From Poriferisphaera corsica (GTDB lineage: Bacteria > Planctomycetota > Phycisphaerae > Phycisphaerales > Phycisphaeraceae), in the NCBI RefSeq assembly GCF_007747445.1, contig NZ_CP036425.1, forward strand, positions 2,960,175 to 3,024,174: DNA of 64,000 bases, given 5' to 3'. Numbering within the stretch: position 1 is the stretch's first letter; every line of letters starts with the position of its first letter. The position numbers and the translations under genes are program-made. Under the pieces are notes generated by a model. The model searched no databases and was not told the origin of the DNA. It worked only from the letters and a program-made list of their open reading frames with translations. Below, one piece after another: positions 2,517 to 62,315 of the stretch.

Positions 2517-2556
2517 AGTGAAACGTTCGGTTAAAGCTAACGTCCGAATAACTCGA

Positions 2557-2592
2557 GAAAGACGGCCTAACGGTCGTCTTTCTTCTTTTTTA
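2557..2592 (+). terminator. Intrinsic terminator of flagellin 1
   Basis: An 11-bp stem (GAAAGACGGCC with GGTCGTCTTTC, one G-T wobble) around a TAAC loop is followed by a T-rich run. Confidence 0.9.
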
Positions 2593-3016
2593 TATATGAT
2601 TTTTTATACATACTTCACACCTTCTATCTCTCATTATCCTCTCATGAAATGTCTGATAATCTGCGGTGTATCCGATTGTAAATGGACGTTTTCCGATCCT
2701 ACGGGTTATGACAGATGACCGACTGTGCGAAATACTCGGGTTATAACGATCAAGATATTTGAATCAAATGTAGCACTTAAGTAATGTCCCCCCTTCGAAG
2801 GGTCGATGGGTCTTGTGTCGCAGCAAGTTACGCGGCGATCGAAAGAGGATTTAAGAGTAACTCATTCGTATTTGTAGCTTCCTTCAACCGTTTCATGTCC
2901 ATTGAATACAGTTGATTGAAACTGAAAAGAGAGTCCCATTCACCACTCCACGGTTTTGGGTCGCCGCTTATCGTGCGTCTGTATCCCTTACCGCTTAAAG
3001 AGCATGGAGGAAAATC
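2593..3016. other. Leader/promoter region of flagellin 2
   Basis: About 420 bases with no convincing gene. A short palindrome, CCCTTCGAAGGG, sits at about 2792-2803. A strong GGAGG (about 3005-3009) precedes the flagellin 2 ATG. No promoter could be assigned with confidence. Confidence 0.5.
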
Positions 3017-4777: not shown

Positions 4778-4811
4778 ACAAAGCAAGACAAACAACGTCC
4801 GAATAACTAAC

Positions 4812-4837
4812 AAGGCGACCAATTGGTCGCCTTTTTA
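4812..4837 (+). terminator. Intrinsic terminator of flagellin 2
   Basis: A perfect 9-bp stem, AAGGCGACC with GGTCGCCTT, surrounds an AATT loop and is followed by a T run. Confidence 0.92.
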
Positions 4838-5474
4838 TATGGACTGAAGCGCAATGATATTTTCTTGCAGGCATATCTTGGAATTGTTAGATCCAGCATA
4901 CACGGCATGACTCATAATAAAGTCTATTAAGATCGTTTATATCTATTTTTTAAGTATTAATCGCGATGCAATTACGCTGTGAGATGTAACGTCACGTCAA
5001 GTAATCATGACTAGGTAGACGTATAAGGTTTGTAGCGATCGTACGGAATGCAAAAAAGAAAAGTGCGTATTCGTGTCCGATAAAAAAGTTTTACTCTCAA
5101 GGTTATTAGGCGAAGGCTTTCTTCCCGATTTCATACGTGCAGCCGAGAGGAAATTTCGGAGGCCAACTGACAACCCGCAGGATGCAGGAAAAGGCAAATC
5201 GGATTGATGTCCATAACATTCCGATTGCCATCAGCCACCAAGGAAGGTGGAAGGAGTTGCAAATGAGGTAAGGATACCTTGCAAAAGGGAATGATCAGAC
5301 CATTCCTAAGAAGATTACCAATCTACAAAATCAGTGTAAAAAACGGGCCTATTATCGGCCCAAAAGCATCAGTCAGATCGGATCGGAGATCCGTGAACGT
5401 TCAGCAGGAAGCTGGATTCGTCAATCGACGGCCAAGAACGTAACACGGAAGCGTGTTCACGGAGGACCAAAACC
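4838..5474. other. Long, hairpin-rich leader of flagellin 3
   Basis: About 640 bases with no convincing gene. The second half can fold into several short hairpins: CCACC/GGTGG near 5236-5250, GGAATG/CATTCC at 5288-5306, GGGCC/GGCCC at 5345-5361 and CGGATC/GATCCG at 5379-5393. GGAGG at about 5461-5465 is the flagellin 3 ribosome site. No known riboswitch consensus was recognised. Confidence 0.5.
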
Positions 5475-7382
5475 ATGAGTCGCATTAATACTAACGTACA
5501 GTCACTTATTTCCCAGAGAACATTAGCCAGTCAGAACAAATCCTTGAACGGCTCGCTTGAGCGTTTAAGCACAGGCTTGCGCATCAACCGCGGTAAAGAT
5601 GACCCTGCGGGCTTAATCGCATCAGAAAACCTGCGTTCTGAAAAGGCATCCATCGGTGCTGCAATCAGCAATGCTGGACGTGCCGATCAGGTCATGAATA
5701 TTGCTGAGGGTGGCTTGCAGGAAATCAATTCACTTCTGCTTGAAGTTCAATCGCTTGTTACAGGGTCTGCAAACGATGCAGGTCTCTCTAAAGAAGAAAA
5801 AGAAGCGAATCAGCTTCAGATCGATTCAATCCTTGAAACCATCGATCGTATTTCAACATCTACTTCATTCCAAGGCACAAAGTTGCTTAATGGAACTTAC
5901 GACTTCACCATCTCCGGCCAAAACGGCGTTGTTGATGACGTAAAAGTTAACGCTGCGAAGCTTTCACACGGCGAAAACCGTGATGTAAATGTGCTCGTCA
6001 CAAAATCCGCTCAACATGCTGGTGTTCTGCTCTCTTTAGGTGCAGATAAACTTGATCTTGGCGGGATGTCAGCCAACGGCACTGATAAGTTGACGGCAGC
6101 GGATAAGAACTTCATCTTTGAGATTGCAGGCGCAAAGGGTTCAAAAGAATTCACCTTTGCTTCAGGCACCACACTCAACGATATGATTGCAGCAATCAAT
6201 ACCTATACTGACGTGACTGGCCTCTCGGCAACACTCAGTGGCGGCACAGCCATTTCACTGAAATCAAACGAGTTTGGTTCCGATGAATATGTTTCCGTTA
6301 AAGTCATCGACGATGGCGATATGGATAACAATGTAACCGGACCAACGACTGGCATCTATAAATACGAAGAAAAGAACGGCAATGTTGCTCATTCCACCGG
6401 TATTGGTGCCACGATTGCAGACTGGGGCACCAATGGTTCCTGGACAACAACTGCATTCGCAGCAGGTGCTGGTACTGCCGCTGCAGACGCGGCAACGATG
6501 GCTGGGATCATTGAAGCGACCAACTTAAATGCTGAAGGTGAAAGAGATACATCACTTGGTGCAAACACTGGTGCTCTAACGACATCAATTACTGGTATCG
6601 CAAACAATGGTTCTGCTGTTTTCACCTCCTACAATGAGAACCACGAACAAGTTCGTTACGAAGTCAGCAAAGATGGTACTGGCAACATCTCATACAAAGA
6701 AGTCACAGAAGCCTATACACCAAACGCTGATATCGCACCATTATTGCCAGCAACATGGTCTTACGCTGAAGGTAAAGAGCCAGAGCGTGACTCCGGTCAA
6801 GACGTTGGCGCGATTGTAAACGGTGTTGTCGCAACTGCTGATGGCAAGCATATTACCGTCCGTACAGATGTTCTTGATACCGAAATCAAACTATCAGATA
6901 GTGGTGCTCAGAGTCTCAATTCTGTACAAGCTTTCACCATTACAGGTGGCGGTGCTCAGTTCAATCTCGGCCCATCAGTTGATATCATCAACCAGGCCAT
7001 CATCGGTATTAGCAACGTATCTGTACGTAACCTTGGTACATTCGAACATGGTTACCTTGACGAGCTTGGCTCATCCAAGGACAGCAACCTGGTCGACGGT
7101 AACCTATCTAAGGCACAGAAGATTGTTGACGATGCAATCAATCAGGTTTCTTCGCTCCGTGGCCGCATCGGCGCCTTCCAGAAGAACACAATTGGTTCAA
7201 CGATCAACTCACTGAGCGTTGCACTCGAAAATACAAGTGCTGCTGAATCATCCATCCGTGACACCGATTTTGCTGCAGAGACTGCTGAAATGACACGTTC
7301 TCAGATCCTCTCACAGGCTGCACAGACTGTACTCGGTACCGCGAACTCTTCACCACAAGCAGTTCTTTCACTACTCGGATAA
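5475..7382 (+). CDS. Flagellin 3 (divergent paralogue)
   Basis: Filament subunit of 635 residues, more distant from flagellins 1 and 2 than they are from each other. The N-terminal D0/D1 shows MSRINTNVQSLISQRT and STGLRINRGKDDPAG; the C-terminal D1/D0 shows IRDTDFAAETAEMTRSQIL and ends VLSLLG. The central domain (about 170-540) is about 50 residues longer and richer in Ala, Gly and Asn, but keeps the same frame elements (SFTFASGTT-like, DVTGL, GGGAQFNLGPSVD), so all three come from one ancestor. The ATG has a GGAGG upstream and a strong terminator follows. The long hairpin-rich leader suggests separate regulation. It is next to a glycosyltransferase-methyltransferase gene that may modify it. 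Confident. Confidence 0.97.
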   Translation: MSRINTNVQSLISQRTLASQNKSLNGSLERLSTGLRINRGKDDPAGLIASENLRSEKASIGAAISNAGRADQVMNIAEGGLQEINSLLLEVQSLVTGSANDAGLSKEEKEANQLQIDSILETIDRISTSTSFQGTKLLNGTYDFTISGQNGVVDDVKVNAAKLSHGENRDVNVLVTKSAQHAGVLLSLGADKLDLGGMSANGTDKLTAADKNFIFEIAGAKGSKEFTFASGTTLNDMIAAINTYTDVTGLSATLSGGTAISLKSNEFGSDEYVSVKVIDDGDMDNNVTGPTTGIYKYEEKNGNVAHSTGIGATIADWGTNGSWTTTAFAAGAGTAAADAATMAGIIEATNLNAEGERDTSLGANTGALTTSITGIANNGSAVFTSYNENHEQVRYEVSKDGTGNISYKEVTEAYTPNADIAPLLPATWSYAEGKEPERDSGQDVGAIVNGVVATADGKHITVRTDVLDTEIKLSDSGAQSLNSVQAFTITGGGAQFNLGPSVDIINQAIIGISNVSVRNLGTFEHGYLDELGSSKDSNLVDGNLSKAQKIVDDAINQVSSLRGRIGAFQKNTIGSTINSLSVALENTSAAESSIRDTDFAAETAEMTRSQILSQAAQTVLGTANSSPQAVLSLLG

Positions 7383-34874: not shown

Positions 34875-34904
34875 GCTCACGATCATGACGTGAGCTTATT
34901 TTAT
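34875..34904 (+). terminator. Intrinsic terminator at the end of the tail-anchored gene
   Basis: GCTCACG/CGTGAGC stem with a 7-base loop, then TTATTTTA. It overlaps the last bases of the convergent sugar transferase gene. Confidence 0.7.
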
Positions 34905-36329
34905 GCCTAGGATTTGCTTTGAGGTGAGTAGTATGAGCTTCATGTCTAAGTGAAAGGACATTTGCTCAACGTAAAGCAGGTCGTACTTAATCCATTCCTG
35001 AAAATCGAGACCTTCATCACGAGAACGATAAACTTGCCACATGCCAGTGATGCCGGGCCTGACTGAGAGACGCGCTTCACGCCATGCGGGGCAAAATTGA
35101 TTTTCTGATTCAGGAGAAGGACGTGGGCCCACGATAGACATATGACCTAAGAGAACGTTTAAGAGTTGAGGAAGTTCATCAATGTTGAGTTTACGGATGA
35201 GACGTCCGATGGTTGTGTGCCTTGGATCTTTTTCAATATAGAAGTGAGGGCCATCTGAAACATTTTGCTGCTGTAGTTTTTGTTTAATTTCTTCTGCATT
35301 ATTACGCATAGATCGGAACTTGATACAAGGAAATTGTTTACCATGCATGGTTTCTCGGGTATGGGCAAAAAAGAAGGGACGGCCATCTTCGATGTAAATG
35401 GCGAGCATCACAATCGGGAATATTGGGAGAAGTAAAATAAGAATCAATAATGAAAAAACGATGTCGAATGCTCGTTTTATAAAACGTTGAATGGTCGTGA
35501 GTCTACGTGGTTTAACATCATAGTATAAGTCCTTCGATGTTACGTTTGGTTCAATCGGATCCCATGTAAATTCGCTTGGTTTGGGGCGGTGTTGTGGGTC
35601 ATCCCAGAGTATAGCTGGCCCAACGACTGTATGTACGGAATCTATGTGTCGGCCTGCACCAATCCATATAGGGCCAACAAAAACTGTTTTGCCAGTATCA
35701 ATCTGAAAATCTGCCATTCTCCAAACAGGCAATTGGGCATTGATTCTTTCGGTCGATGGAATAGTTGTATCTGGACGCCGCCAAATATTTACAAGCTGTC
35801 GCGTGTATTGATTGCATTCTGAATTTCTAGTTACGTCAAAAACAGTTGCAGGAATCGAAACCGCGGCACGATCAATCTGAGATATTTCTTTTCGTAGTTG
35901 ATGCCAAGCTTTGTGAATGTCCTGAAATCTTTGCCATGATTCCGCAATGACAGGATCTGGGGTGAGTGCGACACGTGTAACTTTTCGGTTTGCTGAAGGA
36001 TAGAGCCGTTCGAATCGTATAAAACGATCATTTTCGTCGGTAACGATCCGTTCCTTGTATGCGTGCTCAAGCTGGTCATGGAGACGCAAGATGAGTAAGT
36101 GTGGGCGAAGCCAATTGAGAATGTCATGGATTTGCAGGAACTTGAATGTGACGAGTGAGGTTTGATCCAGGAGTAAATAAAGTTCTGCAGTGTGGTTAAT
36201 TTGCGTGTGCTGATTGACTCGTACAACCTGAATATTGCGCGCAGCCCAAAAACGGTCATGGAGCTGAGATGTATTCAATCCCCATATCGTTTTTTCATTT
36301 ACATGGTGTGCGTTTGAGTTCGTGATCAT
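34896..36329 (-). CDS. Polyprenyl-phosphate sugar-1-phosphate transferase (initiating)
   Basis: A 477-residue enzyme that starts polysaccharide synthesis by moving a sugar phosphate onto undecaprenyl phosphate. The C-terminal 200 residues form the bacterial sugar transferase domain: one membrane segment near KRAFDIVFSLLILILL, then KFRSMRNNAEE, RLIRKLNIDELPQLLNV, VGPRPS and RPGITGMWQV. The first 270 residues are soluble and replace the four-helix membrane region of WcaJ-type enzymes; they show no known domain, though SVVTFKFLQIHDIL-like segments suggest a regulatory role. It is the last gene of the minus-strand polysaccharide array, 24 bases after the Wzc-like gene. Confidence 0.92.
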   Translation of the reverse strand: MITNSNAHHVNEKTIWGLNTSQLHDRFWAARNIQVVRVNQHTQINHTAELYLLLDQTSLVTFKFLQIHDILNWLRPHLLILRLHDQLEHAYKERIVTDENDRFIRFERLYPSANRKVTRVALTPDPVIAESWQRFQDIHKAWHQLRKEISQIDRAAVSIPATVFDVTRNSECNQYTRQLVNIWRRPDTTIPSTERINAQLPVWRMADFQIDTGKTVFVGPIWIGAGRHIDSVHTVVGPAILWDDPQHRPKPSEFTWDPIEPNVTSKDLYYDVKPRRLTTIQRFIKRAFDIVFSLLILILLLPIFPIVMLAIYIEDGRPFFFAHTRETMHGKQFPCIKFRSMRNNAEEIKQKLQQQNVSDGPHFYIEKDPRHTTIGRLIRKLNIDELPQLLNVLLGHMSIVGPRPSPESENQFCPAWREARLSVRPGITGMWQVYRSRDEGLDFQEWIKYDLLYVEQMSFHLDMKLILLTSKQILGIK

Positions 36330-36353: not shown

Positions 36354-38780
36354 TTAGGCTGGCCGTTTTGATTTTACAGTACCATAGGAAGCGACCGCAG
36401 ATGCGAGCGGGCCGAAACGTTCAGATTGTTGCTGCGTGAATACACTTGAAGGTTTGTAATCATGTGAAATGCGAGACTGGGCGGCAGACATTGTGGCATA
36501 GGATGTTTTCTGCATATCCTCACTCAACGCGTGATTAAAGACGACACCTGCAATTTGAGCTTTGAGCGTATAGAGATGCTCAAATGATTTAGTGGTCAAA
36601 GATTTTTGATCACCTCTTGAGACGACCATGATTACGTTGTCAACCGCTGCGGCCATAATGGAAGCTTCAAGTGAACCAAGAACTGGTCCCGTATCAATCA
36701 AGATTACGTCGTAGTATCTTTTGGCTTGTTGAACGAGTTTACTCAATTCGACAGGCGAGAGTTGTCCTGCATGATGGGGTTTTGCATCGCCGATAGGGAG
36801 AACAAAAAGGTTATCAATATCAGTCGGGCCTGCTGCATCTCGAACATTTAGACCAGAGCAGGCATCAAGTATGCCAACGGATGTTTCACTTTGCATTGCA
36901 ATTGCTTGCGCAACTTGCTCTTCAGTCGCAATGCCTCGATCAATAATAAATTGCTTTTCCGATATGTCTCGATTACGCGTTGCTAACTGAACTTCATGAA
37001 CATGCTGCTCAGTAATAATCTCTTGTGTGAAAAGAATTTCAGCAATTGATCTATTAACATGCGCATCTAAACGTCTTGTAAGACCGCCAGCAACAAGATC
37101 GCAGTCAATCAGTAGTGTTTTTGAACCCGTGGCAGCGAATGAAAGACCTAAAGCTACGGACATGGATGTTTTACCAGAGCCTGCCGCGGGGCCGGTGATG
37201 GCATAAGCTATGCCTTGATCCTTGTCAGGATTGGATGCAATCTGTAGCAAGGTACGTATGTGATGGACGGCGTGCGATGCGATTGCAGCTTGTTCGGGAT
37301 CTGCAAGCTCTGTAGGTAAAGTCGGCAATACGCCCAGCATTCGAATGTCCTTGAAGCCAACCTGAGCGTCTTCAACATGCCGTAAACGACGATCAGCAAG
37401 ACCGATTAACAGAACGATACCCACGCCAAATCCAGCGCCACCACCAAAACCGATGATGCCAAACTGGACTCGTTTAACGGTGTTGTACGGCTCGAGCGGA
37501 AAATCACCTGAATTAAGTACATGAACAGTTTGTTCAACAGGCTGCTCAACCTCTAGCCGTTCAAGACGCGTTGTTGAAAATGTTAAGTCATCCTTCGTTT
37601 CACCAATTTCTTCATTGATTTGAGCGATTTTGTTAATACGCTCTGCAAGCGTTAGTGCTGAAGCATCCTTATCAGAAATTTCATCTTCAAGTGCTTGTTC
37701 ACGTGCCCGTAATTGCTTCAATGGTGACTGCGGAACTCCTGCCCCATCTAGTGCTAATCCACTTCCTGAAAGAACATACTGATCAATTTGGCGTTTCACA
37801 GCCTGAAGTTCAGCCTTCGTATTACGTACTTCTGTGTGCCCCGCTCCAATACCACGCGTATCAAACATATGCAATCTGGATTCGAGTAGCTCCTTTTGAT
37901 TGAGTAAGGTGCGGATCCTTGGATCTGTTTGTGCTAACTGCGCTACGATAGCGTCTGATGCCATTGTTCCTTCATCAGGCAATTGATCATCTTTATCTTC
38001 TGCATCAACATCATAGCTCGGAACAAATGACTTAATTTTTGCTTGTAACTCACGTAACTCATCTTTGATCGTTTGAATGTTCTTTCTTAAGTTGTCATGT
38101 TCGACGATAAGAGTCGTTTCAGTTCCGTACTCACTGATCAGGAAACTTTTTTCCTGTTGTAATCGTGAAATACGATTTTGCTGAGTTTGACGAATATTAC
38201 GGATTTGGCTGATCTTATCTGAATCTCGTCGTTCATCTCTTCTCTGTGTATATGCTAAATATGCATCAAGAACTGATTGAACACCTGCTTGCGCTTTTTC
38301 TGGCGTACCGGCAACAAAACTAAAGTTGATCACTTCCTGCTTGCGTGGATGCAGAACCAAAAGGTCTTTATCAAAAACTTGCAGTGCCTGCTGTCGCGGG
38401 AGTTTGCCAAATTGTCGTTCGAATCTAGGATCGACTAATGCCTCATTCAAAACCTGTGGAGATTGGATGAGCTGCACTTGAGCTTCCATGTAAGCATCGA
38501 ATGTACTGATTTGAAATGGTGTATCTACGTCGTTATATAGTAAAACATCTCGTGATTGAGGAATCTGAATCTGTGCACGTGATTGAAATTCATGCCCCTT
38601 ACGAAAATATCCTGCCATACCGCCAGCTATACCGAAAATCGCAGCCAATACGATAGCCCAATGATATCTCCCTCGTAATAACATGAATATACGGTTGGTT
38701 TGCCGAGGCTCATCTTTCGCATCCATACCGTCCCATGCGGTCATTCCAAATTGTGCTAAATCATCATTCTTTTGAACCAT
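36354..38780 (-). CDS. Wzc-like chain-length determinant/BY-kinase ATPase with inserted domain
   Basis: An 808-residue inner-membrane protein controlling polysaccharide length and export. Segments near 40-60 and 465-485 flank a periplasmic Wzz domain with long coiled coils. The cytosolic BY-kinase-type ATPase has Walker A GPAAGSGKTSMSVALG (about 530-546), Walker A-prime TLLIDCDLVAGG and Walker B YDVILIDTGPVLGS (about 685). Between A-prime and B an extra 65 residues (about 575-640) read like a GspE/MshEN-type unit: AEILFTQEIITEQHV and FIIDRGIATEEQVAQAIAMQ. The C-terminus lacks the Tyr-rich cluster of typical BY-kinases. The first gene of the last two-gene unit. Confidence 0.92.
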   Translation of the reverse strand: MVQKNDDLAQFGMTAWDGMDAKDEPRQTNRIFMLLRGRYHWAIVLAAIFGIAGGMAGYFRKGHEFQSRAQIQIPQSRDVLLYNDVDTPFQISTFDAYMEAQVQLIQSPQVLNEALVDPRFERQFGKLPRQQALQVFDKDLLVLHPRKQEVINFSFVAGTPEKAQAGVQSVLDAYLAYTQRRDERRDSDKISQIRNIRQTQQNRISRLQQEKSFLISEYGTETTLIVEHDNLRKNIQTIKDELRELQAKIKSFVPSYDVDAEDKDDQLPDEGTMASDAIVAQLAQTDPRIRTLLNQKELLESRLHMFDTRGIGAGHTEVRNTKAELQAVKRQIDQYVLSGSGLALDGAGVPQSPLKQLRAREQALEDEISDKDASALTLAERINKIAQINEEIGETKDDLTFSTTRLERLEVEQPVEQTVHVLNSGDFPLEPYNTVKRVQFGIIGFGGGAGFGVGIVLLIGLADRRLRHVEDAQVGFKDIRMLGVLPTLPTELADPEQAAIASHAVHHIRTLLQIASNPDKDQGIAYAITGPAAGSGKTSMSVALGLSFAATGSKTLLIDCDLVAGGLTRRLDAHVNRSIAEILFTQEIITEQHVHEVQLATRNRDISEKQFIIDRGIATEEQVAQAIAMQSETSVGILDACSGLNVRDAAGPTDIDNLFVLPIGDAKPHHAGQLSPVELSKLVQQAKRYYDVILIDTGPVLGSLEASIMAAAVDNVIMVVSRGDQKSLTTKSFEHLYTLKAQIAGVVFNHALSEDMQKTSYATMSAAQSRISHDYKPSSVFTQQQSERFGPLASAVASYGTVKSKRPA

Positions 38781-39191
38781 GGTGATCTTTCAATTGATCA
38801 AAAAACGTTCAGAAATTTCGTATGGATCAAGGCATTCAAATCGGATGGTATCTATTGTCTAAATTGCTATACATCAATTTAACGCACGTAGATGACATCT
38901 GGCCCATCTCATATGATAGTATTGTCACTTACACGTTATCCCATTTTATAGAAATATTAGTAAATACATTTATAATGGGAAGCACACATACCTATCCCTC
39001 TAATCTATTTATCGTCCATATTCACCCCTATGCTTGCTCGTATACATTGAAACACCCGAACATATAAAAAGTTCTGATATTATAGTGTAAATTGATCGTA
39101 TCTATTTGTTTTGTACATGCTTAAGAAGATGCATACTATAGGGTTTATACTGATTTCCGCTAATCGTTTGTCACTCAAATAATCAGTCGAT
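38781..39191. other. Gene-free region between Wzc-like and exosortase-like genes
   Basis: About 410 bases, AT-rich, with no terminator recognised. It probably holds the promoter of the two-gene unit that follows on the minus strand. A short open frame at 38822-39067 has no protein character. Confidence 0.5.
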
Positions 39192-40094
39192 CTAAGTATC
39201 TTTTGGTATGGAAAAGCGATTTAAGGGTATCGATGTCCAAAGAAGCAATCTAATTACCATATATAAAACTAATACAGTTAAAATCAATGTGCCCCATGCT
39301 ATATATGCCATGAAATGATAAACACTAATTGGATCGTATACGTTATACATCCATGTCGTCGCTAGAGACCTAATGATATTAACAAATAAAGCGATGAACG
39401 GACTGCTTCCAATGACTATTAGCCTAACAATTGGCCGAAGCGGCATTCCAAAAGCAAAGGCATATGACATCAAAAGAAAAGTCATAAAGAGAGCAACAAC
39501 TCTGCCAGTATGAGCGATAGAAATTGGAATTCCATCATCATTGAAAAGAAGCATACCCTCTCGTTGTATCTCTACACCCATGAGGCCATAAATGACTTGA
39601 GTAACATCTGTCGTAGCAATTTGAACCGGAAGCGATACAACAGAGGCAACTGGAGTAGGTACTGGGATGAGAAAAACCAATACTACAAAAGCTGGCACAA
39701 ATTTTGAAAGTACATCTGTACCTACAACTGACACCCCACATCCAAATACAATTAGAAGCGCTCCTATCATCCAAATCGTTGCAACATTCAAATTTTGCCC
39801 ATATGCATAGATAAACCAACCGGCCAAAACTATTAATGGACCAACCCATGTTGAAACGGGTGCACAAAATCTCATTCGATGCCTTCGAACATAAAACAAC
39901 CAAATTGAGATGAAAGGAATTAAGATTACATACAATGCGTGTTGATAATAAACCGCGGTCAACCAAATTGTCTGCCATGCAAGTCTTGTAAAAAAGCATC
40001 CTATCACAAGCATAATCACAAGAAAAGCTAGGTGCATCATTGTCCATCCATTACGTGACAGTACCCTTGGAACAATGTATATTTTCTGACTCAT
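39192..40094 (-). CDS. Exosortase-family protein with altered active site
   Basis: A 300-residue polytopic membrane protein of about eight segments. Family features: a FLIPVPTP element (about 142-148, near the LMFMIPLP of exosortases), FVNIIRSLATTW (Arg242) and YHFMAYIAWG (His260), which match the conserved Arg and His of the catalytic triad. The position of the catalytic Cys, normally ACSG(L/I)R, reads IAHTGR, with His195 in place of Cys; the CAT codon at 39510-39512 was checked. Exosortases cut PEP-CTERM tails at the membrane and sit in polysaccharide loci, as here. Either this copy is inactive, uses different chemistry, or belongs to a non-protease offshoot. Confidence 0.8.
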   Translation of the reverse strand: MSQKIYIVPRVLSRNGWTMMHLAFLVIMLVIGCFFTRLAWQTIWLTAVYYQHALYVILIPFISIWLFYVRRHRMRFCAPVSTWVGPLIVLAGWFIYAYGQNLNVATIWMIGALLIVFGCGVSVVGTDVLSKFVPAFVVLVFLIPVPTPVASVVSLPVQIATTDVTQVIYGLMGVEIQREGMLLFNDDGIPISIAHTGRVVALFMTFLLMSYAFAFGMPLRPIVRLIVIGSSPFIALFVNIIRSLATTWMYNVYDPISVYHFMAYIAWGTLILTVLVLYMVIRLLLWTSIPLNRFSIPKDT

Positions 40095-40108: not shown

Positions 40109-40999
40109 TCACACAATGATCGTATCAACAACAGATTGTTTAGGCTTCACGATCCCAGTTGAGGTAATTAGTGAGCGAACAATAACTGCATGCTCGCTTA
40201 CATTTGCACCCCGCAAAATAACCGAATCATGAATTTGTGCAGTCGAATGAACATTCGCACCTGACTCTATAATAGAAAATAGCGGCATCCAATCTTCATC
40301 ATTTAGTTTCGTTCCTGTAACAATATGACCATTTAATAATTTAATGGCGTCAATATAGTTATTTAGTGTGCGTACTGGATACGTACGTAAACAATCCGAC
40401 CGATGTACTTTAACATCACGTTTTAAAACAATTTTCGGTAAAGCTTGTTCCTTGAAATCTACAAAACCAACTTTATTAATATCCTTAAGAACCTTTGCAC
40501 GTATAAGTATTACATCCAAAGGAGTATCATCTTTTTGAGAAGCAATAACAACATCGGAATTGGCTACAATCATTTCCGAAATCAGATCTTTAACAGATCC
40601 AACCATGATTTGTGATGCATTCATTATCAGCAACAAATCTTCGTCATCGTATTCTTCTGAAATATCTCTCAATATTCCACCAGTACCACGAAACTCATTT
40701 GGATCAAAATCAAATTGAATCGCAAAATTTGCCACACTAGTCAAATCCGATTTAATTCTAGGCGATCCTCTATCTAATATAAATCGAAGTATAGCATCCG
40801 GCTGACCTAAACTATCAAACGCATTACTTAACATTAACACAAATCGAGTAATAATTGTCTCATCTTCTGAAACAGGTAAATCTAAAAAATTCTTAGTTGT
40901 TTTTTTACGTAAATCTGTCGCACGTACAGAACCAGCCAAAACAATGGCCGCTTTTATACATTCATTTTTGGAGGTACATTTACTCATACTAATAATCAC
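40109..40999 (-). CDS. Degenerate nucleotidyltransferase-like protein
   Basis: A 296-residue protein resembling sugar-phosphate nucleotidyltransferases. It begins AAIVLAGSVRATDLR where active enzymes read (A)GGxGTRLxPLT, so the Gly-rich NTP site looks broken. Later features fit the fold: GTGGILRDI, DLLLIMNASQIMVGSV (a sugar-site element) and a C-terminal left-handed beta-helix-like stretch (VHSTAQIHDSVILRGANV) followed by VIVRSLI. The GTG start (40999) overlaps the stop of the WecG/TagA gene by GTGA; ATG 40987 is an alternative. It may be a regulatory pseudo-enzyme or a much diverged transferase. Confidence 0.65.
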   Translation of the reverse strand: MIISMSKCTSKNECIKAAIVLAGSVRATDLRKKTTKNFLDLPVSEDETIITRFVLMLSNAFDSLGQPDAILRFILDRGSPRIKSDLTSVANFAIQFDFDPNEFRGTGGILRDISEEYDDEDLLLIMNASQIMVGSVKDLISEMIVANSDVVIASQKDDTPLDVILIRAKVLKDINKVGFVDFKEQALPKIVLKRDVKVHRSDCLRTYPVRTLNNYIDAIKLLNGHIVTGTKLNDEDWMPLFSIIESGANVHSTAQIHDSVILRGANVSEHAVIVRSLITSTGIVKPKQSVVDTIIV

Positions 41000-41811
41000 G
41001 ATCGCTGAGTACCAGAATATCGTTTTAACAATGACGCTCCCAAAAGACTCATGCCGAAAGGTATCCCACGAATTAGATATCTACCGGCTAAACGTCTAGG
41101 TTCCTGGACAAACCGGTGTATCCACTCTAAACCAATTTTCTGAATCCATGACGGAGCTCTCTTGACATCACCAGCAATAAACGAGAATGAAATTCCAACT
41201 CCAATAAACCAAACAGATGGGAAACGTACTCTTAGCTTTGCAATTAACCTTTCCTGCTTAGGCGACCCCAAAGCAACATACACAATATCTGGCTTTGCAA
41301 CATCTAATTGCTGAACAATCATTTGAAGAACGTTATCACTCAAATTATTGACAATAATAGGTGAAAACACACCAACTATTTCAATATGATCTATTGTACG
41401 TTGAAGATTAGCCGCTGCCTTTTCAGCGGTATTATTTGCGCCACCTAATAGGAAAATTTTTTTGTTTCTGATTGCGGCATTACTTGATAAACTAATCGTT
41501 AGTGTTGACCCAGCAATTCGTTCCGGTAATGGTGTTCTTTGCAATCTACTTGCCCAAACTAATGGCATACCATCTGCCACAGTAAGATCTGCATTAGCAC
41601 ATAAATTAAAAAAATCTTGATCATGAACGAGTCGATACAGATGATCTAAATTCGGCGTTACTATCCACCCGCCTCTGTTATCATCCAGTGAGTTCAAGAC
41701 GTAATTAATACAATCCTTCTCCGAGATTGCGTGAATAGTAATGCCATAAAGCCTAATGGTTGGCAAATCACTATCTCTCCCATTGAATTGTTTCTGTGTA
41801 ATATAATTCAT
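40996..41811 (-). CDS. WecG/TagA/CpsF family glycosyltransferase (GT26)
   Basis: A 271-residue peripheral-membrane enzyme that adds the second sugar to a lipid-linked intermediate in polymer synthesis. The family motifs are all present: TPNLDHLYRL, ADLTVADGMPLVWASRL, FLLGGANNTAEKAA, YVALGSPKQERL (the GSPKQE signature) and FIGVGISFSFIAGDVKRAP, followed by the WIHRFVQEPRRLAGRYL tail. It follows the membrane GT2 by 10 bases and overlaps the next gene, so it is firmly in the operon. The acceptor would be the product of the initiating transferase at 34.9 kb. Confidence 0.93.
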   Translation of the reverse strand: MNYITQKQFNGRDSDLPTIRLYGITIHAISEKDCINYVLNSLDDNRGGWIVTPNLDHLYRLVHDQDFFNLCANADLTVADGMPLVWASRLQRTPLPERIAGSTLTISLSSNAAIRNKKIFLLGGANNTAEKAAANLQRTIDHIEIVGVFSPIIVNNLSDNVLQMIVQQLDVAKPDIVYVALGSPKQERLIAKLRVRFPSVWFIGVGISFSFIAGDVKRAPSWIQKIGLEWIHRFVQEPRRLAGRYLIRGIPFGMSLLGASLLKRYSGTQRS

Positions 41812-41820
41812 AAATACTAT

Positions 41821-43026
41821 CTACGACGTTCGTTTTGTTTTATTCCATCCTGAATAATTACCCAGCATTGCACGCAAGTATATTGGTACTTTGCGTATCA
41901 TATACTTTGGTAGACGCCACCATAGACTCTTTAACACTCTGTCCTGATCATGCCACCAGATTGCATAGAAGAATATAATGACAAAAATTATATTAGTAAC
42001 AAAAAGCAATAATACTGGAAGATAATAGTCAAATACTATCGATAGTATGATCGTAATAAATTCTATTACGAACAAAAGCATAAAATAAAGTGCTAATGGA
42101 GGGAATACTAAATCAATACAAAATAGTAGCAAAGACAGTTTGGGGGACTTATACATTTTTTTAATAAATTGAGGAACAAATTCGGCAATAATTTGGATAT
42201 GCCCATGCTCCCAACGTTGTCTCTGAAGATGAATATCTACATCATTGCGAGGCAAATCCGAATTTATAAAACTACAATCAAGAATAGGTGCTTTATCAAT
42301 TAACATAAAGTCAATACCCATCTTCATGTCTTCAACAATATGTCCATGATCAAAATTATAATCTAGAAAAAGATTGTTAGGCAAAGCAAATCCAGATCCT
42401 GTAACATTAGCCATTCCAGTTATATTATATAGTCCTATAGCCCGCATTTTATTTTTAATATAAAAAGCCAAAGCCGACATACTGGCATAATCTGAATCAA
42501 TGTTAGGAAAATTCAATGTATATATTGATTGAACAGGTCGTTGCTGCTGCACTGCTTTAGTCGTAACTTGTTTGATTAAGCCGGAGGATATTTCACAATC
42601 TGCATCAATGATAACAACTGCATCAAATGTTTTATCCTTCAAGTAATTTTGAGCAGCGGCAATAGCATAACTTTTACCTATTTGGGAAGAATCATCTACA
42701 GTAATAATTTCATCGGTATAAACGCTTGAGAGTTCCACAGTATGATCATTACAATTGTGAGCTACCACAACAAGAATGTCATTTTCGTCAATTTGATTGC
42801 ATATATTCTTCAACGTCCTTGAAATACAGGCTTCTTCATTATGCGCAGGTACAACGACAGCAATTTGATTTCTCAAATCTAATTTTGAGTCATCACAATT
42901 CAAAGATACTACTGAATTATTGATATTCTTTAATGATAGTAATAGCTCTAAAATTAGAAACCATAACGAACCAGCTGTAAGTACAACTGCAAACCAAATT
43001 ATGACGTATGCAATATCCAAACTCAT
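41821..43026 (-). CDS. Membrane family 2 glycosyltransferase
   Basis: A 401-residue membrane enzyme of the processive GT2 style. A membrane segment (about 8-30) precedes the GT-A domain: VVVPAHNEEACI, VVVAHNCNDHT, IDADCE (DxD), SGFALPNN and HGHIVEDMKMG, and then LQRQRWEHGH, the Q-x-x-R-W element of processive enzymes. Two or three membrane segments follow (about 290-350). It may extend or side-branch the repeat unit, or act as a polymerase of the cellulose-synthase type. The ATG overlaps the sulfotransferase-GT2 stop (ATGA), so translation is coupled. Confidence 0.9.
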   Translation of the reverse strand: MSLDIAYVIIWFAVVLTAGSLWFLILELLLSLKNINNSVVSLNCDDSKLDLRNQIAVVVPAHNEEACISRTLKNICNQIDENDILVVVAHNCNDHTVELSSVYTDEIITVDDSSQIGKSYAIAAAQNYLKDKTFDAVVIIDADCEISSGLIKQVTTKAVQQQRPVQSIYTLNFPNIDSDYASMSALAFYIKNKMRAIGLYNITGMANVTGSGFALPNNLFLDYNFDHGHIVEDMKMGIDFMLIDKAPILDCSFINSDLPRNDVDIHLQRQRWEHGHIQIIAEFVPQFIKKMYKSPKLSLLLFCIDLVFPPLALYFMLLFVIEFITIILSIVFDYYLPVLLLFVTNIIFVIIFFYAIWWHDQDRVLKSLWWRLPKYMIRKVPIYLRAMLGNYSGWNKTKRTS

Positions 43027-44903
43027 GACTTTCTAGTGCTTTTATAGTCAATAATTTCATTATTCTTATACTTGTATAAGTAAAATTTCAACTGACCCAA
43101 CATTGCTGGCAATTTGCCTATTGTGAGATAGAAAGCATTAATTATACGTAGTTTTTTCGAGTATTTTCCGCCACTTTCAATACGATATAGTTTTATAAAA
43201 TGCCAAACATAAATAATTAGAATAATCAAACTATAAGGCAGATATACAAACGATATAATGGGTATCAGCAAGCCGTATATCCATATATTAAGTGTTTCTC
43301 GAACCCAATGCCTTTCGGGTTTGTTCCCATGCATCGCTGCGCCCTGCGCAAAACCCCAGCCAGATCGAACTGTACGCATCCACCATTGCGAAAAACTGTG
43401 TATATCAGCATCATGAAATGTCATATCAGCATCAATTCGGTATATTTTCCAGCCATTCTTACGAATACGAATACACATCTCCGGCTCTTCACCACAAATC
43501 ATTGTCGTATTAAATCCACCTACCTGAAATAGAGCATCTAACCTGCAAAAAGCATCTCCGTGGCAATATTTAGCCTCGCCAACAGGGGTATCCCATTCAA
43601 GATCAATCATTTGGTTGTATATTGAAGCTTTCGGATACTTTTCATTTCTTCGACCACTAACAATTGCTACTTCTGTGTGATTCTCCATATAATGATATGC
43701 CTTATCTAACCAACCATCATGCAACTCACAATCACCATCGATGAACTGTATATACTTAATATTAGAGTAATTTTCTTTCAAGTAGGTAAAACCGGCGTTA
43801 CGTCCCCTAGCCATATTCATTGGCTGACTTTCATCTAAAACAACAACATCAACATTATGCTGCCTGGCATATTCGCAACTACCATCTGTTGAACAGGAAT
43901 CGACGTAAACAATATAGTTTGCTTGATTCAAAACTGATTCAATCGATTTTTTTAAACGTTCGCCTTCATTCCTGCCAATAATGACCACACCAATATGGTC
44001 ACTTGCTGACGCGTACTCAACACACATTAATTTATGATTCGTCCATGTAAAATGTCTTAACTTCTTACTTTCATCTGAAAAATTGCAACAATTTAATTCT
44101 AGATCGAACCATTTATTAATTAATTCCAGATCATTATTAAATATAAGTTCTAACCTATCTAAGCGATCTGGTGAAATTTCCGGCCGGCCTTTCATCTGCC
44201 AAAATTGTTTGATTTTATTTCGGTATGATGCTGAAATGTAATGATGCCTTATATACGTAAACAACTTAGAATATACAATTAAATCACGAAATGATGAAAC
44301 ACGTTCTCTTTTCTTCGAAACATTACTATGAGCATTTTGATAAGCTATTGCCTTATCATGATATCCTATAAAATCACACACATCATGAAGTACGTTCTCT
44401 TGGTTACGAATGAAATACTCAAATGATAGTAACTGTATATTGCTAGTACCAAATAGTTCAATATATGGCGTAAGCTGATATGCAAATCTAGAATACGATA
44501 TCAATCTTGGATATCTATCGATTGCGGTATTGATATCTTCTTTTATCGTTTTCTCAGTCCATTCATGAATGTACTGAGAAATTAGTCGCTCTATCGGGTG
44601 CCTAATAATGTAAATAATTTTCACATCGTTCTTATAATCGAATAACCTTTTTGTTGTTATTGGATAGGTTGGTAATTTTGTATAATGTGTACTTGACTCA
44701 CCTGTTAAATCATAAGGATTTGCATTCTCATAAAGAGATTCATACCAATCTACACCATTAATATAAACATCATCATCACTGAAATAATTAGGTTCTTTTG
44801 GCTCAGTCATGAAAACACCATTTTGTAGTGCAAGCAAATCATGCAAAGATGTTGTTGCACACTTCATAGCGCCAATGATTATGAAATCCGGGTACTTATT
44901 CAT
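43023..44903 (-). CDS. Sulfotransferase-glycosyltransferase (GT2) fusion
   Basis: A 626-residue two-enzyme protein. Residues about 1-270 are a sulfotransferase: IIGAMKCATTSLHDLL is the 5'-phosphosulfate loop and IIYIIRHPIERLISQYIHEW the 3'-phosphate site for PAPS. Residues about 300-540 are a GT2 domain: VVIIGRNEGERL, DSCSTDGSCEYA, FIDGDCELHDGW (DxD) and MICGEEPEMCIR. One or two membrane segments follow (about 545-590). The fusion could add a sugar and sulfate it within the same repeat unit, giving a sulfated exopolysaccharide. Both junctions with neighbours are 4-base overlaps. No PAPS synthesis genes are in the window. Confidence 0.92.
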   Translation of the reverse strand: MNKYPDFIIIGAMKCATTSLHDLLALQNGVFMTEPKEPNYFSDDDVYINGVDWYESLYENANPYDLTGESSTHYTKLPTYPITTKRLFDYKNDVKIIYIIRHPIERLISQYIHEWTEKTIKEDINTAIDRYPRLISYSRFAYQLTPYIELFGTSNIQLLSFEYFIRNQENVLHDVCDFIGYHDKAIAYQNAHSNVSKKRERVSSFRDLIVYSKLFTYIRHHYISASYRNKIKQFWQMKGRPEISPDRLDRLELIFNNDLELINKWFDLELNCCNFSDESKKLRHFTWTNHKLMCVEYASASDHIGVVIIGRNEGERLKKSIESVLNQANYIVYVDSCSTDGSCEYARQHNVDVVVLDESQPMNMARGRNAGFTYLKENYSNIKYIQFIDGDCELHDGWLDKAYHYMENHTEVAIVSGRRNEKYPKASIYNQMIDLEWDTPVGEAKYCHGDAFCRLDALFQVGGFNTTMICGEEPEMCIRIRKNGWKIYRIDADMTFHDADIHSFSQWWMRTVRSGWGFAQGAAMHGNKPERHWVRETLNIWIYGLLIPIISFVYLPYSLIILIIYVWHFIKLYRIESGGKYSKKLRIINAFYLTIGKLPAMLGQLKFYLYKYKNNEIIDYKSTRKS

Positions 44904-52299: not shown

Positions 52300-55200
52300 T
52301 CAATCGAACATCGCCAGTTCCAATCTCGCTGTTGAGGTCAGGTAATCAATCAAAGCACGATACTTGATCGCATGCTCAATCGGCTGATCTTGGTACTCCA
52401 GATGACCCCATGACCCCCATTTACTTGGCCTTCTCACATATTGATACGCCATATACATCGAGCCTCCGGATTTCTCGAAACTCTTCATATTTTCAATCAT
52501 CGCCTGATACATCTCGACAGATGACTGTGCAGCAATCAACGCGCCCGTCATCGTATCATCACTGGAAACCAAATGCTGACCAGCTTCATACGAAATATAA
52601 TCGATTGGCCTCCCCAATTTCTGTGACCACGCCTGTGCAAGCTGATGATGCTGCGATCGTTTATTGGTACGATTTTGAATATCCATCACCGCATGCGCCA
52701 TAATCTCACCCACAGATAGAGTTGAGCCAGGATGTGCGCCAAAGTAAGCCGTCGATGCGATTGCATCAAAGCCACCATCCATCTGACTAAGTACCATCTC
52801 TGCAATCCACGGATTGGTCTCCTGCCCCGCATATACACGCACCAAACGGTTCATCTGACCGTTAAACACATCCGACCAGATATCCAAATCACGTCTTGCT
52901 TCAATACCCCACTGAGCCAGCCATCGGTGTCCAGCATTCATACTCGACAATGCAGGATTCGTCTTACCTTTATCAGTAATCCAATGGAATTGCTTAAATG
53001 CAGGATTCCAAACCTCATTTGAATACTCCACATATACCTTCAAATTCGGATCTAATTTCTCGCGAACCATTTCCGCAAACTGTCTCACATATTCATCATC
53101 AGCCTTATGTGGCATGCAAAACCATGGATTAAACTTCAGTTTATTCGCCAGTTCAATCATCAACTCAATCGCAATCGGCTTATCACACTGCGTCGCCTCA
53201 ATCGGCAACGTTCGGTTATCCCATTTCACCCGCTCACTATTATTCGTCAGCTGCCAATCCATGTACCGCACCGTCCCAAACGGCTTCAGCCGCTCTAGAA
53301 ACATCGGATGGAATTTATAGCCAGCCCATTTCTCACCCGGCCCACAATCTGGTGCCCAGACGCGAATATTCTTCGCATCACCCTTCACCCGAATCTGAAT
53401 CCCACTATCCCTAACGATACATTCAACTTCACCATCCCCATCAAACTCAACCGTATACTCACCGTCCGGCATCTTCCCACTTATCCCCTGCATCGCTTCA
53501 TATATCTTCCAGCCATTTTCTTCACGGCGATAGGTCGACTGCATAAACACATTCGTCCAAACCCATGAATCAGACCAGAATGTAACCGCTCCAAGATTCA
53601 TCCCAAGGAAACCGTTTCGAATCGGCAATCGCGCATTATCCCAATCTCTAATACTCCCATCAAACGGATCATCGACGCCTCCATTATTCGTCCCGCTACC
53701 ACCGCCCGTATTTCCTCCACCATTTGATCCATTACCTGTCCCACCATTACTGCTTCCACCGCCCGAATTCGTGCCATCCCCAGATCCATTACCACTACCA
53801 CTTCCATTACTATTGCCACCATCTGTTCCACCACCCGTACTTCCGCTCCCTGATCCACTACCATTCGACCCTTGCGATGAACCGTCACCTGTCCCGCCAC
53901 TCGCCACATCCTTCACCTCAACCCATTGCTGCAAGTATTTCGTACCCAGATCCGGTGCGCTGTAATACACAATCAGTTTATTACGGCCGCTCGGCAAACC
54001 TTCAAGCAAATCACCTGTAATCACCCAAGGTTCAGCAATATCCTGCTTTCCCCAATCCGGCACACTCTTACCCAAGCTCTCCGCCCACGCCCAATACCCA
54101 AGCTCAAACCCAGTTGGCAAATTCCCTTCAACCTTCAACTTCAAATCACCAATCGCCCCTTTCGTCAAACTCATCAACTGCCCATCCTCAAAACTCACTA
54201 TGGGCATTTCCACCACACCAGGCCCATTCGGATCAACTGGATCTGCCTCTCCTTTCTTAACCGTCACCCATTTTTCAGTATATGCCGTTGTTAAATCTTT
54301 CGCCGACATATAAAAGATGATTTTATTTCGTCCTTCAGGCAGCTCTGCTATTTCCTCAGCGGTCACCCCCCAAGAGCCTCCATCTTTTACTTCACCCCAA
54401 TTCGAAACAGTCTTACCCAACTCGTTCGACCACGCCCAATACCCAAGTTTAAACTCGCTCGGCAAATCTCCATTGACTTCAATATCCAAACCCTTCCCAT
54501 CCCCCTTCACATACTCAACACCATTTGCCAAACTCAACTGAGGCATCGCCACAGGCTCAAGCTCAACTACAACCACATCCCCACCACCAATGCTCGAGCC
54601 CACAACCTCATTCACCGTCATCCAACAAGAGATATACTTGGTCTTATCAACCGACGACGACATATACGCCATCACCTTATACTGGCCTGGCTCAAGCAAA
54701 TTCAAATCTTCACGTTTAACCACAAAGTTCCCACCAACCATCTCCTTACCCCATCCCGCCACATTCCCATTCAAAGCCTGCGACCACGCCCAATACCCAA
54801 ACTTCGTATCCTTTGGCAAACCACCCTTTATCATCAACATCAAATCAATCGCATCACCTTTATCAATTTCATATCGCTGCTGTGCAAATCGAAATTCGGG
54901 TAACTTCGTAACCGCAATCTTGCCGTCTTCATCCTCAGATGCAACACCCCCCTCAATCTTTGTTTCCTTCACCAACACCCACTGCGATAAATACTTTGTC
55001 CCAAGACCATCCGCACGATAAGCCACCTGTACCTTATTACGACCCAGTGGCAATTTCGCTAATTCCCTACCATCTATCTTCCAATTAGGCGGATCAATCG
55101 TCTGATCCCAATCTGAGACAGTCCCCTTCTCCACCTCCGACCACGCCCATGCGCTGGCTTTAAATCCGCGAGGTAATGCCCCACTCACATCCAACCGCAC

Positions 55201-55746
55201 TTCACTTGCCGCACCACGATCAATCGTCACCGTCCCTGAATGCGCAAATCTAACCACAGGCATGACCGATGTCACAACCTCAGATTTTACAGTCTCAAAC
55301 TGCTCTGCAACCTCAACAATTACCGATTGCTTCTTTTTACCGAATACCCTAACCCACTTTGACCCATATTGTGTTCGTTTGCCCGGTACACTCGCATAGA
55401 TCACGATCTTATAATCGCCATCCGCCAACTCACTCAACTTCTCTCCATGAATCACCCACGGCTTCTTCTGCAGCTCTTCTCCCCACCCCTTCACATTCCC
55501 CCGCTCTTTCAATGACCACGCCCAATATCCAACTTTCATCCCATCCATCTCACCACCATAAAACGAGAGCGGCAAATCGTTTTCGATTCCGCGATCAAAC
55601 CCACGCCCCACATGCATGCCAACATATGGACGCGGCAGCACACTTTCCGTTGCTCCCACTTCATCAGCTATAAACAACAAACACACAGCCATACAAATCA
55701 CTGCGCTGATAGCTCGAGCAACCCGCCCTCTCATTTGGCTCATCAT
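52300..55746 (-). CDS. Large secreted protein: five W-A-W repeats, Gly/Ser linker, glycosidase-like domain
   Basis: A 1148-residue secreted protein. Signal peptide: about 1-33. Residues 40-612 hold five repeats of about 120 residues, each with a GYWAWS-type core (Trp at about 74, 200, 319, 437 and 552), a WG or DW motif 15 residues on, and a (K/R)W(V/M)xV end. They resemble carbohydrate-binding beta-sandwich modules but match no family I can name. A Gly/Ser/Asn linker follows (about 617-691). The C-terminal part is clan-A glycosidase-like: VYVEYSNEVWNP (Glu911) and YISYEAGQHL (Glu1054) are candidate acid/base and nucleophile. It lies at the head of the polysaccharide array, so it may bind and trim that polymer. 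Start: MMSQM, ATG 55746 or 55743. Confidence 0.85.
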   Translation of the reverse strand: MMSQMRGRVARAISAVICMAVCLLFIADEVGATESVLPRPYVGMHVGRGFDRGIENDLPLSFYGGEMDGMKVGYWAWSLKERGNVKGWGEELQKKPWVIHGEKLSELADGDYKIVIYASVPGKRTQYGSKWVRVFGKKKQSVIVEVAEQFETVKSEVVTSVMPVVRFAHSGTVTIDRGAASEVRLDVSGALPRGFKASAWAWSEVEKGTVSDWDQTIDPPNWKIDGRELAKLPLGRNKVQVAYRADGLGTKYLSQWVLVKETKIEGGVASEDEDGKIAVTKLPEFRFAQQRYEIDKGDAIDLMLMIKGGLPKDTKFGYWAWSQALNGNVAGWGKEMVGGNFVVKREDLNLLEPGQYKVMAYMSSSVDKTKYISCWMTVNEVVGSSIGGGDVVVVELEPVAMPQLSLANGVEYVKGDGKGLDIEVNGDLPSEFKLGYWAWSNELGKTVSNWGEVKDGGSWGVTAEEIAELPEGRNKIIFYMSAKDLTTAYTEKWVTVKKGEADPVDPNGPGVVEMPIVSFEDGQLMSLTKGAIGDLKLKVEGNLPTGFELGYWAWAESLGKSVPDWGKQDIAEPWVITGDLLEGLPSGRNKLIVYYSAPDLGTKYLQQWVEVKDVASGGTGDGSSQGSNGSGSGSGSTGGGTDGGNSNGSGSGNGSGDGTNSGGGSSNGGTGNGSNGGGNTGGGSGTNNGGVDDPFDGSIRDWDNARLPIRNGFLGMNLGAVTFWSDSWVWTNVFMQSTYRREENGWKIYEAMQGISGKMPDGEYTVEFDGDGEVECIVRDSGIQIRVKGDAKNIRVWAPDCGPGEKWAGYKFHPMFLERLKPFGTVRYMDWQLTNNSERVKWDNRTLPIEATQCDKPIAIELMIELANKLKFNPWFCMPHKADDEYVRQFAEMVREKLDPNLKVYVEYSNEVWNPAFKQFHWITDKGKTNPALSSMNAGHRWLAQWGIEARRDLDIWSDVFNGQMNRLVRVYAGQETNPWIAEMVLSQMDGGFDAIASTAYFGAHPGSTLSVGEIMAHAVMDIQNRTNKRSQHHQLAQAWSQKLGRPIDYISYEAGQHLVSSDDTMTGALIAAQSSVEMYQAMIENMKSFEKSGGSMYMAYQYVRRPSKWGSWGHLEYQDQPIEHAIKYRALIDYLTSTARLELAMFD
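53674..53898 (-). repeat. Gly/Ser/Asn low-complexity linker within the glycosidase-like gene
   Basis: About 75 codons, nearly all Gly, Ser, Asn or Thr, separating the repeats from the catalytic domain. It is a flexible linker and a likely site of length variation. Confidence 0.9.
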
Positions 55747-61472: not shown

Positions 61473-62315
61473 ATGCACGCATTCAAAGCACTTATCTGTA
61501 CTGCGACAATGATCGCTACAACGGCCACACTCGGTGCAGCCGAAATCACACTACAGAACGGACTTGACGGCTACAACGGTATGACCGACTCTTGGCTTAC
61601 CGGCGGAAATGCCACATGGGAAAACACGACCTACGGCACATCTGGTGGAGCCTACGGCAACATCCTCGGCGGCGCTGGCGGCGCAGCTCGTCGTGTCGTC
61701 CAACAATGGGACCTCAGCTCACTCAAGGGCAAAGTCGCTAAAATCAACAGCGCACGTATCTACACCATGGCAACAGGTGGCAACCAAACCAACATCAACA
61801 TCTATAAAATCGCATCCACCAACGCCTCCTGGACCGATGCCCAAACCGGCACCGATTATACCGGCTGGGATCGCACCGAAGTTTGCTGGCGTGCACGCAA
61901 AGCCGGTGACGGCGACTCACACTGGCTTAACGAAGCCGGCGAAGTCCAATACGGCATCATCTCTGATTCATCCAAACTCATCGGCCAAAACACCGCAATC
62001 GCCGGTACCATCGCCAGCAACGTCAATATCTTCTTTGACATCGACGTCGACACCATCAAAGAATGGATCGACTCTCCTGAACTCAACGCAGGTATGGTCT
62101 ACAACACTGACAACGAATTTACATCCGGCAAATTCTTCGTCATCGGCTCACAAATCTTCGGTTCACCCGGAACCCCTCCTGTCGAAGATGACGGCTACGG
62201 CAACACAATCGCTTACTACCCACGCCTCGTCATCGACTACACCGAAGTCCCTGAGCCAGCATCACTCGCGCTCATCGGCCTCGGCGGTCTCGCATTCCTC
62301 TCTCGCCGCAAGTAA
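61473..62315 (+). CDS. Secreted PEP-CTERM protein with DNRLRE-like domain
   Basis: A 280-residue secreted protein. Signal peptide: about 1-22, ending LGAAE. The body (about 24-250) resembles DNRLRE or CBM-type beta-sandwich domains: ITLQNGLDGYNGMTDSW, QQWDLSSLKGKVAKINSARIY, TGWDRTEVCWRARKAG and FDIDVDTIKEWID-type segments occur in the expected order. The C-terminus VPEPASLALIGLGGLAFLSRRK (22 residues; core VPEPASLALIG plus LSRRK) is a canonical PEP-CTERM sorting tail, expected to be cut by an exosortase and the protein attached to the outer surface. A good ribosome site and a terminator make it a one-gene unit. Confidence 0.93.
   Translation: MHAFKALICTATMIATTATLGAAEITLQNGLDGYNGMTDSWLTGGNATWENTTYGTSGGAYGNILGGAGGAARRVVQQWDLSSLKGKVAKINSARIYTMATGGNQTNINIYKIASTNASWTDAQTGTDYTGWDRTEVCWRARKAGDGDSHWLNEAGEVQYGIISDSSKLIGQNTAIAGTIASNVNIFFDIDVDTIKEWIDSPELNAGMVYNTDNEFTSGKFFVIGSQIFGSPGTPPVEDDGYGNTIAYYPRLVIDYTEVPEPASLALIGLGGLAFLSRRK

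Follow-up and report, generated by a model that had tools for sequence, protein, structure and literature searches.

A degenerate exosortase-family protein in a polysaccharide locus of Poriferisphaera corsica

Genomic context and family membership

The window analyzed here is a 64,000-nucleotide stretch of the Poriferisphaera corsica genome, which is a single contig of 4,291,168 bp. It carries a polysaccharide gene cluster with the following features around an exosortase-family gene, the position of which beside the NTP gene is termed the slot below:

34896..36329, minus strand: EpsZ-like initiating sugar-phosphate transferase (profile match, synteny)
36354..38780, minus strand: Wzc-type chain-length/tyrosine autokinase, downstream of the slot (profile match, synteny)
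38781..39191, no strand: 411-bp gap between the exosortase and Wzc genes, the site of EpsI (DUF3485) in intact loci, here without an EpsI ORF
39192..40094, minus strand: degenerate exosortase-family protein (pseudo-exosortase), 300 aa (ORF, PF09721, alignments, model)
40109..40999, minus strand: NTP, nucleotidyltransferase-like neighbor with an altered nucleotide loop, used as the locus marker
40996..41811, minus strand: WecG/TagA/CpsF glycosyltransferase, upstream of NTP (profile match, synteny)

The slot protein matched the EpsH/exosortase family across most of its length (PF09721, 86.6 bits against a Pfam gathering cut-off of 25.7), and a Pfam-based annotation would label it "exosortase". 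It further resembles the family in its predicted membrane-helix fold, its position in a polysaccharide locus and the PEP-CTERM-rich genome that encodes it, but it has neither the catalytic Cys nor the catalytic His nor an EpsI partner, and its XrtA score (TIGR03109, 57.3 bits) is far under the NCBIfam curated cut-off of 208. The AlphaFold model was helical with a pLDDT of 89.6, the family being defined as polytopic with at least eight membrane helices. Among solved structures, no template was found by sequence profile at E ≤ 1 and no match by fold search at E ≤ 0.001. The archaeosortase ArtA is presumably related to the window protein beyond a comparable set of critical residues. It is a polytopic membrane Cys transpeptidase with such a set (PMC9263693) and requires a Cys and two Args; a Cys of this kind is missing from the window protein.

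The closest relative among 61 genomes searched was the copy of strain ZRK32 (L005, CP066225; 56% identity), for which the name P. heterotrophicis has been proposed (PMC10945688); both Poriferisphaera species have been cultured (PMC7783415, PMC10945688). Intact slot exosortases from related Phycisphaerales (e.g. L006-L017) occupy the same position after NTP, share 35-39% identity with the window protein and mostly have the same RNGW N-terminus, but they keep Cys, Arg and His as well as EpsI, whereas the window copy lacks Cys, His and EpsI. The gene order WecG-NTP-exosortase-Wzc-EpsZ is widely common to intact and degenerate loci by synteny. Exceptions are the degenerate L053, where the 20 kb read contained neither a Wzc nor an EpsZ match, L047 and L048, with no WecG match and an intact EpsI-fused exosortase on the far side of NTP, and the intact L057, with no Wzc or WecG match; some other loci also lacked a WecG match. 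By descent and fold, the window protein corresponds to the exosortase in a polysaccharide locus conserved among Phycisphaerales (WecG-NTP-exosortase-EpsI-Wzc-EpsZ).

An EpsI ORF directly followed the exosortase in all nine intact loci read (seven from the same family as Poriferisphaera, two from another family of the order), and EpsI also stood beside the exosortase in all 18 additional loci whose intact copy was full-length, an adjacency that is not universal across the exosortase family. At the window locus there was no EpsI ORF in the gap 38781..39191 and no PF11984 match nearby.

Several other genes of the window deserve mention. Nucleotidyltransferases such as NTP usually carry a GxGTR nucleotide loop. 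This loop was missing from all 20 NTP sequences aligned, drawn from intact loci, degenerate loci and one empty locus (LAGSVRATDL in the window), and the NTP neighbor may thus be a pseudo-nucleotidyltransferase too, serving as a marker of this locus type. The Wzc-type kinase (36354-38780) has an apparent insertion within its ATPase domain (residues about 570-660) that weakly resembles NF053729, a motif for cyclic di-GMP binding (15.2 bits, below the cut-off of 38). A single protein encoded at 43023-44903 combines an N-terminal sulfotransferase domain with a C-terminal family 2 glycosyltransferase domain, the polysaccharide cluster ends upstream with a 1148-aa protein (52300-55746) that gave no Pfam match at E ≤ 0.1, and three consecutive flagellin genes lie at 759-7382.

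Active-site residues and alignment register

The slot protein was compared with homologues in an alignment of 128 rows, corresponding to 124 distinct full-length sequences after removal of one fragment (L103) and three duplicated genes. Sequences in which Cys, Arg and His were all present were regarded as intact (116 rows, 113 distinct). The codons of interest in the window are:

39309..39311, minus strand: Met262, at the catalytic His position (alignment)
39369..39371, minus strand: Arg242, retained, unlike the other two catalytic residues (alignment)
39504..39506, minus strand: Gly197, at the catalytic Cys position (alignment; equivalent to C180 in the L001 model)
39510..39512, minus strand: His195, at a conserved-Glu position (alignment; Glu in the sister copy L005)

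Position 197 is Cys in 120 of the 124 distinct homologues and Gly in the window protein, the only cysteines of which are at residues 33, 77 and 119, with none beyond. Position 262 is His in 114 of 124, and Met occurs there only in the window copy and L005. Arg242 is shared with 116 of 124, while position 195, Glu in 116 of 124 and in all 113 distinct intact sequences, is His. The sister copy reads SETGR, with Glu at 195 and the same Gly and Met as the window copy, and Thr196, Gly197, Arg198 and Arg242 are common to both Poriferisphaera copies. Six invariant exosortase residues have been described, in the motifs C-x-G, N-x-x-R and H-x-x-x-G (Haft et al. 2006, PMC1569441); two of the six are present in the window protein and one in L005. 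Of the intact set (116 rows, 113 distinct), whose selection already required three of the six, 114 rows carry the complete six and two carry five.

Eleven of the 124 sequences were not intact: the window copy, nine more from Poriferisphaera's GTDB family, and L172. The latter comes from a draft genome of another family of the order (G083), has Tyr at the Cys position with Arg and His kept, and was held apart as a single draft genome.

Around position 197, a MAFFT alignment of the ten degenerate copies only (A1) picked a register with a two-residue insertion, in which His195 falls in the Cys column. When gaps were charged at a cost of 12, the gapless register scored higher than the insertion register both for the window protein (32.6 vs 24.2) and for L005 (39.3 vs 24.7); with the gap cost removed, the window protein preferred the insertion (36.2 vs 32.6) and L005 was still gapless (39.3 vs 36.7). 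The AlphaFold models of the window protein and of L001, the intact paralogue from its own genome (pLDDT 91.4), showed the same helix and loop pattern with a constant offset of 17 (C180/G197, R225/R242, H245/M262, E178/H195), which supports the gapless register, although this support is not fully independent since the window model was built on an alignment (A2) with the Cys column already at residue 197. His195 as a replacement of the catalytic Cys was rejected on the basis of the Glu in the sister copy, both models and the register scores, and neither register gives the window protein a Cys at the active site.

The sequence-only reading had described an exosortase-family protein with His in place of the catalytic Cys. 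Family membership and the absence of the Cys held up, as did the retained Arg and the statement that no thiol nucleophile could form; the proposed His swap rested on a register that was off by two, and the His it took as the conserved one likewise belonged to a wrong register, the catalytic position being Met262. A nearby active-site Cys, which it had proposed to look for by profile alignment and structure model, was found in neither register. On sequence comparison and prediction, then, Cys, His and EpsI are absent while Arg and the predicted membrane fold are kept, and the window protein is very probably dead as a Cys transpeptidase.

Intact paralogues and putative PEP-CTERM substrates

The sequence-only reading had proposed to look for a second exosortase elsewhere in the P. 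corsica genome, and two are encoded there: L001 and L002 both have Cys, Arg and His, which rules out the window copy as the genome's only exosortase. Of the two PEP-CTERM-like substrates it had placed in the window, one was confirmed by Pfam and no second was found by the genome search at E ≤ 0.1, where 114 PF07589 matches were obtained, one of them within the window:

61473..62315, plus strand: PEP-CTERM protein (PF07589, 28.9 bits), likely a substrate of the genome's intact exosortases

Slot states across the family

A match was obtained in 156 of 400 genomes of the order, and sequences were read for part of the 156. Of the 51 genomes of Poriferisphaera's GTDB family, 36 carry the NTP gene. 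The slot held an intact exosortase with EpsI in 14 genomes (11 genera) and a degenerate copy without EpsI in 10 (5 genera), and no exosortase was present in the remaining 12; the locus can therefore do without the protein. EpsI was adjacent in 14 of 14 intact-slot genomes vs 0 of 10 degenerate-slot genomes, adjacency in six of the 14 (G003, G011, G015, G029, G072, G074) being taken from coordinates rather than from read loci. The slot gene of G010 is split by a contig end and was counted as intact. Two genomes were counted as empty with an intact exosortase encoded elsewhere: in G026, EpsZ directly follows NTP and the exosortase is on another contig, and in G027 it lies downstream of EpsZ. In genomes such as these, the exosortase may have moved rather than been lost. 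Two of the 12 empty slots belong to genus g9, a third species of which carries a degenerate copy. Low-scoring exosortase-like genes were also seen in G026, G027 (L068) and G022 (L069); L068 and L069 adjoin intact exosortases, and the L068 stretch read lacked a Cys-x-Gly motif.

All 10 degenerate-slot genomes have a second XrtA-type match, in each case complete in Cys, Arg and His, and a second match was found in one of the 14 intact-slot genomes (G023). The threshold for such copies (E ≤ 1e-15) was set from one query, and longer exosortases occur in both groups; in G010 the second match was left out, being the remaining part of the slot gene that the contig end splits. With phylogeny ignored, Fisher tests of second copy against slot state gave 5.6e-6 by genome and 0.0014 by genus (5/5 vs 1/11). 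Among the empty-slot genomes, five of 12 had an XrtA-type match (G014, G026, G027, G036, G061) and seven (G062 and six of genus g8) had none at E ≤ 1e-15.

The residues lost differ between the degenerate copies. The slot copies of genus g19 (5 genomes) and of G009 keep the Cys and have lost Arg and His, that of G004 has lost all three, and so has that of G006 when read without a gap, with Gln in place of the Cys, even though a nearby Cys was aligned by MAFFT. Together with the window pair, these patterns indicate that the loss differs by lineage, and the pseudo-exosortase set of 10 genomes and 5 genera may have arisen more than once. Gly197 and Met262 are common to both Poriferisphaera copies, and the loss of Cys and His therefore probably predates the species split.

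Evolutionary history of the slot

In the exosortase tree, the window pair was certain (support 100). Support was weak for joining it with L052 (53) and for a clade of all ten degenerate copies (57), and strong for L053 with L024 and genus g19 (98). In the neighbor-gene tree, the neighbors of the window pair were intact loci (0.943). The remaining eight degenerate copies shared a clade with empty loci, degenerate and empty being interleaved: L052 with the empty g8 loci (0.976), L050 with empty g9 (0.992) and L053 with empty g14 (1.0). Judging from these trees, catalysis would have been lost one to three times, and about three gene losses would have followed if the neighbor-gene tree is right and the empty slots descend from degenerate ones.

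Selection on the degenerate copies

The reading frame is open in 10 of 10 degenerate copies, and all five g19 genomes keep theirs. For the window/L005 pair, pN was 0.288 and pS 0.73. A neutral simulation of this pair run to a third-position divergence of 0.55 accumulated 12.6 stops on average (minimum 4, 50 runs) and fell to 18% identity; the observed pair has no stops and 56% identity at a third-position divergence of 0.60. The three further comparisons of degenerate copies (one sequence is used in two of them) gave pN/pS values of 0.150/0.38, 0.200/0.66 and 0.228/0.65, and four intact pairs had pN of 0.123-0.189 at pS of 0.55-0.87. The ratios were thus 0.30-0.39 in the four degenerate pairs vs 0.18-0.34 in the four intact pairs, with dS saturated. 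The ratio of pN between the window pair and L001/L064, an intact pair from the same two species, was 1.7. Between P. corsica and ZRK32, the slot exosortases share 56% identity, compared to 44% for NTP, 52% for WecG and 41% for GT2, and 75% for Wzc and 69% for EpsZ. The constraint on the degenerate copies is real but weaker than on intact ones, and by these substitution patterns the window protein has been constrained since the Poriferisphaera species split.

Interpretation

The loss of the active site and the retention of the protein in a slime-making cluster suggest either a non-enzymatic job or a relic that is slow to vanish. The explanation we favor, with moderate confidence, is that of a pseudo-exosortase whose catalytic work has gone to its paralogues and which persists for the sake of a binding or scaffolding function in polysaccharide assembly. 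The window protein would no longer cleave or transfer PEP-CTERM proteins, the processing of which would have been taken over by the two intact exosortases of the genome, and the degenerate protein would be retained for something else. Most likely, it would dock or hold together parts of the complex that exports polysaccharide, next to Wzc, or it would bind PEP-CTERM tails and leave them uncleaved. That a non-catalytic function was kept is rather probable, as the conservation of the degenerate protein argues for one. The empty slots in relatives indicate that such a role is not essential to the locus, and disruption of epsH in Methylobacillus, reported to leave methanolan production unaffected (Haft et al. 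2006, PMC1569441), speaks against a general structural role.

Plain decay is a serious though unlikely alternative, according to which a second exosortase took over and the slot copy, having lost its partner and active site, drifts functionless to deletion. The 12 empty slots among 36 NTP genomes, their interleaving with degenerate loci and the pN/pS ratios somewhat above those of intact copies are all as expected from it; the ten open frames, the copy kept throughout g19, and ratios of 0.30-0.39 in four pairs (with neutrality simulated for the window pair) speak against it. The sequence-only reading had likewise offered a retired homologue as one option. The lost Cys and His, the missing EpsI and the 12 empty-slot relatives agree with this, but "retired" may be too strong for a protein that still evolves under constraint.

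Its other option, a different transferase class, found no positive evidence. A further alternative is a changed enzyme, in which Thr196, Arg198 and Arg242 would make up a new site, for example for a phosphate or a lipid-linked sugar in polysaccharide export. Both Poriferisphaera copies do share Thr196, Gly197, Arg198 and Arg242, and the gene sits among glycosyltransferase and export genes, but the combination occurs in two sequences only, the Arg at 242 is lost in the other eight degenerate copies, and the fold search of solved structures was negative at E ≤ 0.001, making this improbable. It is very improbable that exosortase activity persists, with either His195 or a remote Cys as the nucleophile: the kept Arg242 and the register of alignment A1 would allow it, but the sister copy has Glu at that position, no Cys follows residue 119, the catalytic His is Met, and mutagenesis of ArtA found Cys173, Arg214 and Arg253 to be critical (review, PMC9263693).

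A broader reading, which we regard as possible and somewhat doubtful, concerns the fold as a whole: in polysaccharide assembly, proteins of the exosortase fold would play a part that is non-catalytic and can be told apart from PEP-CTERM processing. In the family of Poriferisphaera, the slot copy, once a second exosortase was present, would have shed its active site and EpsI and kept a scaffold role. We found no report of a pseudo-exosortase or catalytically inactive exosortase in the open-licence literature, beyond which prior publication is possible.

According to Haft et al. (2006, PMC1569441), 90% of EpsH proteins are found near exopolysaccharide genes, and EpsI is described there as of no known function. 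The absence of EpsI from all ten degenerate slot loci (L172 being outside this count) would couple it to exosortase catalysis. Loci that occur in three comparable states, intact with EpsI, degenerate without EpsI, and without exosortase, would let catalytic and non-catalytic roles be separated genetically, and bear on whether EpsH acts near exopolysaccharide genes only as a protease.
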